The notes under the pieces: model-generated | Seen by the model: only the letters and a program-made list of their open reading frames with translations | The model's database searches: none | Told to the model about the DNA's origin: nothing | Made by a program: the position numbers and the translations under genes | NCBI GenBank assembly: GCA_019749945.1 | Contig: JAIEPF010000010.1 | Span: forward strand, 62,001-126,000 | DNA from: Burkholderiales bacterium | GTDB lineage: Bacteria; Pseudomonadota; Gammaproteobacteria; Burkholderiales; SG8-41 | DNA length: 64,000 bases | Reading direction: 5' to 3' | Part shown: piece after piece, positions 23,024 through 64,000 of the stretch | Layout of the letters: each line of letters starts with the position of its first letter | How positions within the stretch are numbered: the first letter of the stretch is position 1

Positions 23024-23027
23024 AGCA

Positions 23028-23150
23028 GTGAACGGGTGAAAGGTGAAGGGTGAACGCGTGACATTCTGCGGGACTAAGTTTGTGCGCGGCTTCCGCGCCA
23101 AGTGCAGCGGGGTTGCCCGTTCACCCGTTCACCCCTTCACTCGTTCACCG
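23028..23150. repeat. Inverted pair of 7-8-bp repeat tracts
   Basis: The left arm has GTGAA units starting at 23028, 23036, 23043, 23050 and 23058 (period 7-8). The right arm has TTCAC units with CAC at 23122, 23130, 23138 and 23146 (period 8). The arms are mutually complementary, so the mRNA between livK and livH can form a long imperfect stem around a loop of about 60 bases. The element may modulate the livK:livH expression ratio. Confidence 0.6.
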
Positions 23151-23158
23151 TTTTAACC

Positions 23159-61902: not shown

Positions 61903-62571
61903 TTACCGCGGCCTGCGCGCTTCGACGGCGGCGAAGATCGCGTCGCGTATGTTTTCAACCGAGCCCACACCCGGGATCAGCACGTATTGCGGCGCGCGAG
62001 GGTCGCCGCTGGCGCCCCGGCTGATGTAATAATTGATCAGCGGTTTGGTCTGGGCGTGATAGGTCGCAATGCGTTCCCTCACGGTGTTTTCATTGTCGTC
62101 GGGGCGTTGCACCAGCGGTTCGCCGGTGACATCATCCCTGTCGGCGACGCGCGGCGGATTGAAGTCGATGTGGTAGGTGCGGCCCGATCCCGGATGCACA
62201 CGGCGGCCGCTCATGCGTTTGAGGATTTCCGCATCGGCGACCTCGATGTTGATCACGAAGTCGATATCGATATTCGCTTCGCGCAATGCTTCAGCCTGCG
62301 GCAGGGTGCGCGGAAAACCGTCCATGATGAAGCCTGACGCGCAGTCCGGCGCCTTGATGCGTTCCTTGACCAGCGCGATCACCAGCGGATCCGGCACCAG
62401 CGCGCCGCGCTCCATGTAAGAGCGGGCTTCGTTGCCCGCCGGTGAATTGCTTTTCATCGCCGCGCGCAGCATGTCGCCGGTGGATATCTGCGGGATACTG
62501 AACCGCCGGACCAGGAATTGGGCCTGGGTGCCTTTGCCGGCACCGGGCAGGCCGAGTAACAGTATGCGCAT
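61903..62571 (-). CDS. adk: Adenylate kinase
   Basis: A 222-aa enzyme interconverting ATP, ADP and AMP. P-loop [17 protein letters not shown] (about residues 4-20), AMP site [29 protein letters not shown] start [20 protein letters not shown]. Long-LID form without the four zinc cysteines. It sits downstream of kdsB on the same strand, 63 bases apart, the usual betaproteobacterial lpxK-ycaR-kdsB-adk order. Confidence 0.96.
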
Positions 62572-62634
62572 GGAATGATGCTGGATCGGTGTGAAAGGGC
62601 TGCAAGTATAGCCGCGCCGTCGCGGCTCGCAAAA

Positions 62635-63393
62635 TCAACGGCGAAACAACCCTTGCACTTTGCGCAAATCCGCGGGGGTATCGACGCCGGGATGCGGCGC
62701 CGCGGCACTGATGGCGACGCTGATGCGATAACCGTGTGCCAGCGCGCGCAATTGTTCCAGCGCTTCCGCACGTTCGATTGCCGCCGGTTTGAGTCCGGCG
62801 TAGGCGCGCAGGAAACTGCAGCGGTAGGCGTAAATGCCGAGATGGCGCAATGCGGGCAGGGTTGCGGGCAGCTTGCGTATGCCTTCCGCGAACGCGTCAC
62901 GCGCATACGGAATCGGTGCGCGGCTGAAATACAAGGCATAACCCTGGTCGTCGAGCACCACTTTGACCGCGTTCGGATTGGCCATGTCGCGCGCATCGCG
63001 GATGCGGCAGGCGGCGGTGGCGATGGCGGCGGCGCGGTGCGCGGCGAGGTTTTCGGCGACACGGCGGATCAGCGCCGGTGCGATCAAGGGCTCGTCGCCC
63101 TGCACGTTGACCACGATGGCATTGGCGGCAAGGCCGAGTTTTGCCGCAACTTCGGCCAGGCGGTCGGTGCCGGAGGCGTGGTTGCGGCGCGTCATCATCG
63201 CCTGAAAACCGTGCTTGTCGACCGCAGCGGCAATACGCGCATCATCGGTGGCGACGATCACCTGCGCTGCGCCGCTTTTTGCGGCACGCTCCGCGACGCG
63301 CACCACCATCGGCCTGCCGCCGATGTCGGCCAGCGGTTTGCCGGGGAAACGCGAGGACGCGTAGCGGGCGGGGATGACGACGGTAAAGATCAT
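62635..63393 (-). CDS. kdsB: 3-deoxy-manno-octulosonate cytidylyltransferase
   Basis: A 252-aa CMP-KDO synthetase that activates KDO for LPS inner-core synthesis. I start at ATG 63393 ([20 protein letters not shown]); the longer frame runs into a heptad repeat tract. Motifs: [12 protein letters not shown] (CTP loop), [10 protein letters not shown] (metal), [10 protein letters not shown]. The stop is followed by adk. The repeat tract at 63395-63422 lies immediately before the start and could affect translation initiation. Confidence 0.95.
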
Positions 63394-63394
63394 A

Positions 63395-63478
63395 GTGATG
63401 AGTGATGAGTGATGAGTGATGAGCAAGGCAGGAGGGCTGTGGTTCTGCCCATTACCGTTTACCCATTACTCATTACCG
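63395..63478. repeat. Inverted pair of heptad repeat tracts upstream of kdsB
   Basis: Left arm: four exact GTGATGA units at 63395, 63402, 63409 and 63416. Right arm: four 7-bp units ATTACCG, TTTACCC, ATTACTC, ATTACCG at 63451-63478, which are degenerate reverse complements of the left units. The arms flank a 28-base G-rich centre. It occupies the whole gap between ycaR and kdsB and may form an mRNA stem at the kdsB leader. Confidence 0.65.
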
Positions 63479-63480
63479 GT

Positions 63481-63660
63481 TCACAATTCTTCTTCCGCCG
63501 GAACCTTGCGCGCATCCTCTTCCAGCATCACCGGGATGCCGTCCTGGATCGGATAACCGAGGCGGCAGGGTTTGCAGATCAGCTCATTGGCCGCCTTGCG
63601 GTAGAGCAGCGGCCCCTTGCAGATCGGGCAGACCAGTATGTCGAGCAGCTTGTCATCCAT
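63481..63660 (-). CDS. ycaR: Trm112/YcaR-family small zinc-binding-like protein
   Basis: A 59-aa protein starting [20 protein letters not shown] at 63660, with two CPxCK/CKPC pairs (VCPICKG at about residues 10-16 and [19 protein letters not shown]). The closing [11 protein letters not shown] motif is the family hallmark. Function of bacterial members is not established; they sit consistently between lpxK and kdsB. Its start overlaps the lpxK end by 8 bases. Confidence 0.92.
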
Positions 63661-64000
63661 GGCGGCGGGCCTGTGCGAGCCGGGCGACGATGGTGTCGCC
63701 CAGTGATTCATCGGGTACGGCGTTGACGACCAGCGCCCAGTGGCGCGTGGTGGCGAATGCCGCGCATTTTACCGCATCCTTTTCGGTCATCACGACATGG
63801 TGGTCGCCGGCGAACCGCAGATCCTGCGCGGTGTAGACGTGATGGTCGGGGAATGCACGGGTCACGCAGTCCAGCCCGAGGCGCTGCAACTGCGCAAAAA
63901 ACCGAGACGGGTTGCCGATGCCGGCGACGGCATAAACCTGCCGGCCGCGGAAATACGCGGCGGTGACGGTTTGTTGCGGATCATGCAGGTTGCGCAAGGT
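63653..64000 (-). CDS. lpxK: Tetraacyldisaccharide 4'-kinase (C-terminal part)
   Basis: The C-terminal 115 or so residues of LpxK, which phosphorylates the lipid A precursor. The frame runs to the window edge without a start. Recognisable elements are [34 protein letters not shown] and [15 protein letters not shown]. The 3' end overlaps ycaR by 8 bases. First gene in this window of the minus-strand lpxK-ycaR-kdsB-adk run. Confidence 0.9.

Follow-up and report, generated by a model that had tools for sequence, protein, structure and literature searches.

Heptamer repeats of bacterial intergenic regions have long been on record, yet they are still unexplained. The heptanucleotide repeats of cyanobacteria are known as STRR. 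REP/BIME and MITE elements are intergenic inverted repeats, present in operons as well, that possess a conserved sequence or core.

The heptamer repeats nearest to the present ones are those of two reports. Rehm et al. (2015; PMC4692102) described GGGNATC and GGGGA(C/T)T heptameric intergenic repeats in Xanthomonas and Nostoc; in the accessible part of that paper phase variation is considered unlikely, the function of the G-rich heptamers is left open, and three heptanucleotides in Calothrix are cited. MacGregor (2015; PMC4679880) described TAACTGA direct repeats in Beggiatoaceae, cyanobacteria and Bacteroidetes. According to the accessible sections, these repeats precede start codons, bring stop codons in forward orientation and are located where a canonical RBS is rare, and a binding-site role has been suggested for them.

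The repeats analysed here, one of which fills the gap between ycaR and kdsB, are of the same kind as the published ones, each of which is described for a set word in these sources, whereas here the word changes. Like the repeats of PMC4692102, as far as the accessible text goes, they are dispersed tandem arrays of heptamers, mostly non-coding and located between aligned ORFs, within 50 bp of a stop (sense) or a start (antisense), single or as an inverted pair, with varied copy number and next to genes of general metabolism, and their gene context is conserved between relatives (here in 55/74 orthologous gaps). In contrast to them, the kdsB-gap units of this and sister genomes are devoid of G-tracts, and in the genus other heptamers or an octamer take the place of this unit in orthologous gaps while the inverted layout stays. 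The TAACTGA repeats share with ours the proximity to start codons and the stops in forward orientation, but that report, in its accessible sections, deals with a single word that forms direct repeats almost exclusively and has no predicted structure, whereas inverted pairs and several words are found here. Cyanobacterial STRR also comprise several heptamer words per genome, although switching of the word at orthologous places is not described in the literature examined. REP/BIME and MITE elements are also intergenic inverted repeats; however, the conserved core is theirs, no shared centre having been found here. Open-access titles and abstracts, a set that covers few subscription journals, yielded no report of word switching of heptamer repeats at fixed places.

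The repeat element of the ycaR-kdsB gap

The window (the whole stretch of DNA that was analysed, 64,000 nucleotides) carries the following features at this locus:

62635–63393, minus strand: kdsB, with Pfam domain CTP_transf_3 (name taken from the first-pass annotation and synteny)
63394–63480, minus strand: entire ycaR-kdsB gap, 87 nt, filled by the element
63395–63422, minus strand: 3' arm in the sense of kdsB, (TCATCAC)x4, which is GTGATGA x4 on the plus strand, one base short of the kdsB ATG
63423–63448, minus strand: hairpin centre or loop, 26 nt
63449–63476, minus strand: 5' arm in the sense of kdsB, GTAATGA GTAATGG GTAAACG GTAATGG, four bases past the ycaR stop
63481–63660, minus strand: ycaR, with Pfam domain Trm112p

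Read on the kdsB strand, the order is ycaR TGA, ACCG, 5' arm, 26-nt centre, (TCATCAC)x4, T and kdsB ATG, the ycaR stop being at 63483–63481 and the ATG at 63393–63391 of the minus strand. The first-pass annotation had noticed here an exact GTGATGA x4 tract facing an inverted degenerate partner across a 28-base centre, and this observation is sound and above chance. Tandem Repeats Finder returns the perfect arm as a period-7 array of 4.3 copies (100%, 63394–63423) and the inverted partner as a degenerate period-7 array, also of 4.3 copies (73%, 63448–63477). Both arms are 71% complementary over 31 nt, and the coordinates of the flanking stop and ATG confirm that the element occupies the gap from stop to start. 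The central spacer exists too, with 26 nt in our register instead of 28, the register being the sole difference. The pattern GTRATGRx3 (up to 3 mismatches) has five matches in the window, all of them inside this element, while shuffles expect 0.04, and the predicted RNA hairpin of the gap has a folding energy of -27.3 kcal/mol, with a z of about -5 against mononucleotide shuffles. A search of Rfam with 62500–64000 gave one match (E 0.4, 14.1 bits vs a cut-off of 100). Neither an intrinsic terminator (a GC stem followed by a T-run) nor a promoter was detected in 63300–63700, the promoter search being limited to the sigma-70 type.

It had also been proposed that slippage of the perfect tract would alter the kdsB leader and possibly LPS synthesis. 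The repeat does sit in the kdsB leader, which thus carries a perfect x4 repeat, and the array content of the gap varies greatly among relatives, differing from species to species. However, a phase-variable simple repeat tuning kdsB and LPS via slippage is very unlikely, since the same kind of array precedes many housekeeping genes, the tract is outside the conserved ORF, between the ycaR stop and the conserved start, and 5/18 genomes of the same genus have no array in the kdsB gap (by eye). Only one base separates the tract from the ATG, which is the start of the orthologues too, so slippage would leave the reading frame unchanged. A special role in kdsB/LPS switching is not supported either, similar arrays being found before leuB, tatB, purD, the dihydroorotase gene, a nuoK-like gene and mlaC. 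Phase variation of kdsB was thus rejected as the main reading on the grounds of the arrays at housekeeping operons and the position of the tract.

In what follows G000 designates this genome, other G numbers the compared genomes, and L numbers the loci. Among 20 other genomes of the genus, KdsB was found in 19 and both genes in 18. Inspection by eye revealed a repeat hairpin in the ycaR-kdsB gap of 13 of these 18 genomes, and 12 of the 13 use a word other than that of G000. The words are GTAACTG/GTAATTA in G024, GTGACTG in G022, GTGATTC/GTAAATG in G008, GTAATTG/GTGACTG in G011, GTGAACA/GTAAGCA types in G005, G018 and G014, GAGGATC/GAGGATT in G023, G017, G020 and G019, and the 8-nt GTGAACGG in G010, and G007 has a TCATCGC type that is near the G000 word in one arm. 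The remaining 5/18 genomes have short, repeat-free gaps of 13 nt (G009, G015 and G016), 25 nt (G012) and 32 nt (G021). In G009, G015 and G016 (L197, L196 and L199, respectively) the kdsB start is probably a GTG located within a short palindrome, CGGTGAAATTCACCG.

Outside the genus, 5/9 genomes that belong to other genera of the family and have both genes show a hairpin in the kdsB gap, mostly with other words. Arrays just upstream of kdsB were also found in G030, G036 and, in another family, G063. Visual inspection of 80 loci from named public genomes showed clear heptad hairpins in the close relatives L065, L066, L067 and L069 alone, L065 being the same contig as G005.

Arrays in other operon gaps and in other genomes

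Genome-wide, the exact triple GTGATGA unit is present in the kdsB tract only. The relaxed pattern GTRATGRx3 (up to 2 mismatches) has 113 matches in the G000 genome vs 26 for the reversed control pattern, and at least 34 heptad clusters could be drawn by hand among the matches listed. According to our own simple gene caller, 24 of 34 clusters are flanked by co-directional genes, 2 by convergent and 2 by divergent ones; 3 are inside called genes and 3 at contig ends. The flanking pairs that were checked include leuD-leuB, tatA-tatB, purH-purD, aspartate carbamoyltransferase-dihydroorotase, an SspA-like protein (under the family cut-off) with the ClpXP specificity-enhancing factor, NADH dehydrogenase chain 6 with chain 4L (nuoJ-nuoK by position), MlaD-MlaC and ycaR-kdsB.

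The layout of these elements is stop, GTRA-type array, centre, TYAC-type array and start. In many cases the element takes up the whole distance, near 100 nt, between stop codon and start codon; GTGATG-type units come at the beginning and CATCAC-type units at the end. Unit counts in the occupied gaps show the same orientation: sense-strand units number 209 in the 5' half of the gap vs 15 in the 3' half, and antisense-strand units 224 in the 3' half vs 21 in the 5' half. The window contains a second element:

23024–23158, plus strand: inverted pair in a co-directional gap, with GTGAACG/GTGAAGG words and partly period 8 (CCCGTTCA)

Orthologues of 24 element gaps of G000 were located in six genomes of the genus by means of a joined query, and regions from five of them were used. 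A gap was counted as occupied when the period-7 score of its two halves exceeded that of mononucleotide shuffles (p<=0.02, gaps of 40–300 nt), a criterion that replaced a first period test (17/21, then 14/21 matches) too insensitive for degenerate arrays. Period-7 arrays are present in 20/22 tested gaps of G000 and in 55/74 tested orthologous gaps of the five other genomes (G022 16/18, G005 12/13, G023 12/14, G010 8/15 and G024 7/14). As a control, 126 other co-directional gaps of 50–300 nt near kdsB were taken from seven genomes and the window; only 7 reach the same level, G017's kdsB gap and the window element at 23024 being among these 7, and the 126 include G010's kdsB gap, which has period 8 and is missed by the period-7 test. 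The difference between 55/74 and 7/126 indicates that the places of the arrays are often kept.

Period 8 was found in four gaps of G010 and three of G024. In G010 the octamers GTGAACGA/GTGAACGG replace heptamers at leuD-leuB (L043), L046_2800 and kdsB. Orthologous gaps shorter than 40 nt number 22, three of them at L044, whose gap in G000 is 17 nt as called, with a start that is probably miscalled. The clearest short alleles, of 2–17 nt or with overlapping genes, are those of L037, L039, L050, L052 and L053; short orthologous gaps were seen at purH-purD, aspartate carbamoyltransferase-dihydroorotase, L037 and nuoJ-nuoK. A single array without partner is found at L051 in G010, G024 and G022.

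The abundance of GTRANNRx3 in the genus ranges from 0 (G009, G015 and G016) to 473 (G022). The former three genomes have no exact match, so some lineages of the genus possess the class and others do not. Among the other genomes of the family 12/16 have 57 matches or more, and among those of the order (n=24) only G054 (71) and G063 (125) exceed 6. An even sample of the phylum comprising 150 genomes, this one included, contains 36 with any match, mostly few, the control being of similar size in several of them. The reversed control is not empty, with 28 vs 127 matches in G000 and 108 vs 681 in G026. In G013 the reversed pattern outnumbers the pattern (30 vs 10), and a further word may therefore be in use there. 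GAGGATY arrays occur in 13/21 genomes of the genus, with none for the reversed control.

Turnover of the word at kept places

The place and the hairpin layout outlast the word, words being kept less well than places. A clear word class could be assigned in only 46/73 occupied gaps. In orthologue pairs with a dominant class, the class differs in 36/55 and agrees in 19. Because the loci were selected by the word of G000, pairs with this genome are biased towards difference, and the count without it is fairer: 15 pairs differ and 11 agree (n=26). Close relatives share the word more often, as in G022-G024 (4 alike, 1 different). The commonest word differs between genomes, and several unrelated words are used at once within one genome.

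This turnover bears on G-quadruplex elements, proposed for the GGGNATC heptamers. The genomic placement is the same as in the accessible part of Rehm et al., and the GTGATGG form present at other loci gives GGG runs in tandem. Nevertheless, there is no run of three G in GTGATGA (kdsB), GTAACTG, GTGAACA or GAGGATT, and word switching does not suit what a quadruplex requires, so that this explanation is hardly tenable. More generally, sequence-specific explanations such as quadruplexes lose weight in view of a genus whose words change at places that often persist together with their inverted layout.

A change of the word affects both arms jointly. Within the gap, the best 21-nt complementarity of the arms is 15.32, as compared with 11.60 after shuffling. 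It falls to 14.12 if the 3' half is that of the orthologous gap in another species (p 2e-5; the within-gap value is higher in 46/70) and to 13.82 if it is that of a different locus in the genome itself (p 1e-4; within-gap higher in 52/73). For instance, G000 and G022 have a homologous centre at L037 (GGGAAAAACATG...), flanked on both sides by arms that pass from a GTGATGG type to a GTAACTG type. The similarity of centres at the same locus is 7.89 vs 6.86 for unrelated gaps (p 0.007), a modest effect based on the 27/69 gaps that could be split. In the same 27/69 gaps, centres are not common to different loci of one genome (6.83 vs 6.86, p 0.95), and the sharing of arms across loci of one genome is weakly above background (p 0.10 for the 5' arm and 0.03 for the 3' arm).

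A mobile repeat of the MITE/REP type, moved by a transposase such as Y1/RAYT and diverged afterwards, would account for elements that are dispersed, intergenic and provided with inverted arms, as well as for short sites of empty appearance. Y1_Tnp is present in 10/21 genomes of the genus, G000 included. However, it was not found in the array-rich G014, G008 and G024, which are incomplete (91, 79 and 93%, respectively), and it is present in G009, which has no GTRANNR array. The cores AAACC and GGTTT are not clearly enriched in occupied gaps vs controls (14/73 vs 13/108 and 9/73 vs 15/108, respectively), although AAAAC is (16/73 vs 3/108). A classical MITE is disfavoured by the finding that different loci of one genome have no centre in common, and on balance a mobile origin appears unlikely.

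Perfect short tandem units whose word changes could also be written by a reverse transcriptase that uses a short template in the manner of telomerase. RVT_1, however, is present in only 3/21 genomes of the genus (G011, G017 and G019) and was not found in the seven genomes whose GTRANNR counts are highest, some of which are incomplete; such a mechanism is extremely improbable.

Folding, stop codons and possible roles of the arrays

A fold z<-2 against mononucleotide shuffles was obtained for 52/73 occupied gaps; among co-directional gaps in the vicinity of kdsB, kdsB gaps being counted with them, 38/115 reached this value. The share of the gap covered by the predicted stem is no larger in occupied than in control gaps (median 0.82 vs 0.80, p 0.71), which argues against a special role in bridging stop and start; a hairpin joining both was consequently dropped from the main claim. 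All three frames contain a stop in the initial 50 nt of 45/73 occupied gaps vs 8/108 controls (13.3 after shuffling). Words of the form GTRA combined with a period that is not divisible by three have this consequence, so the stops may be no more than a by-product of the word. Among the tested gaps, periods 6 and 9 are very rare.

Shine-Dalgarno-like matches (>=4) are rarer in occupied gaps, 16/73 vs 53/108 controls (p 3e-4). Together with arrays that abut start codons and a commonest word that varies by genome, this depletion would fit arrays of binding sites for an RNA- or DNA-binding regulator with which the word co-evolves. The simultaneous use of several unrelated words by one genome and the mixed functions of the flanking genes do not fit, and we regard such a regulator as improbable.

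The explanation that we favour, with moderate confidence, is that the arrays are fast-changing intercistronic heptad-repeat hairpins that are tolerated or kept as spacers between stop and start, the kdsB tract being one arm of such a hairpin. Arrays would arise or insert in short stop-to-start gaps and would be rewritten quickly by slippage and by copying between arrays. What maintains the complementarity of both arms could be correction templated by the hairpin, or else selection in favour of a stem-loop in the mRNA. As they have no effect on the frame and provide stops in all frames on entry, the arrays may persist as harmless or mildly useful spacers. A change of copy number at kdsB would then lengthen or shorten the leader stem without a frame switch of KdsB.

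A related but doubtful possibility is that the element is inherited by place and architecture and not by sequence, as a hairpin of 7- or 8-nt words in which both arms are rewritten in concert from a genus-wide dictionary while the locus-specific centre is kept. Most of the words contain a TRA stop triplet and periods 7 and 8 are coprime with 3, so translation would be halted in the 5' arm whatever its frame. This all-frame stop would explain the near-absence of periods 6 and 9.

In this genus the question can be put to the test: either selection acts on an intercistronic stem-loop or on an all-frame stop, or both arms are rewritten through copying. Nature provides filled as well as short alleles of a given operon gap for this purpose.

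Two side observations concern other arrays in G000. Contigs begin or end inside GTGATGG arrays of about 10–11 units at L034 1–146 (G000:C8 start) and at the end of L038 (G000:C18 end), so assembly breaks may hide the longest arrays. Finally, L046 2670–2901 is a composite element in which two words are ordered B-A, centre, B'-A', without nesting, and its centre, of roughly 60 nt, is conserved in G022 and G024.
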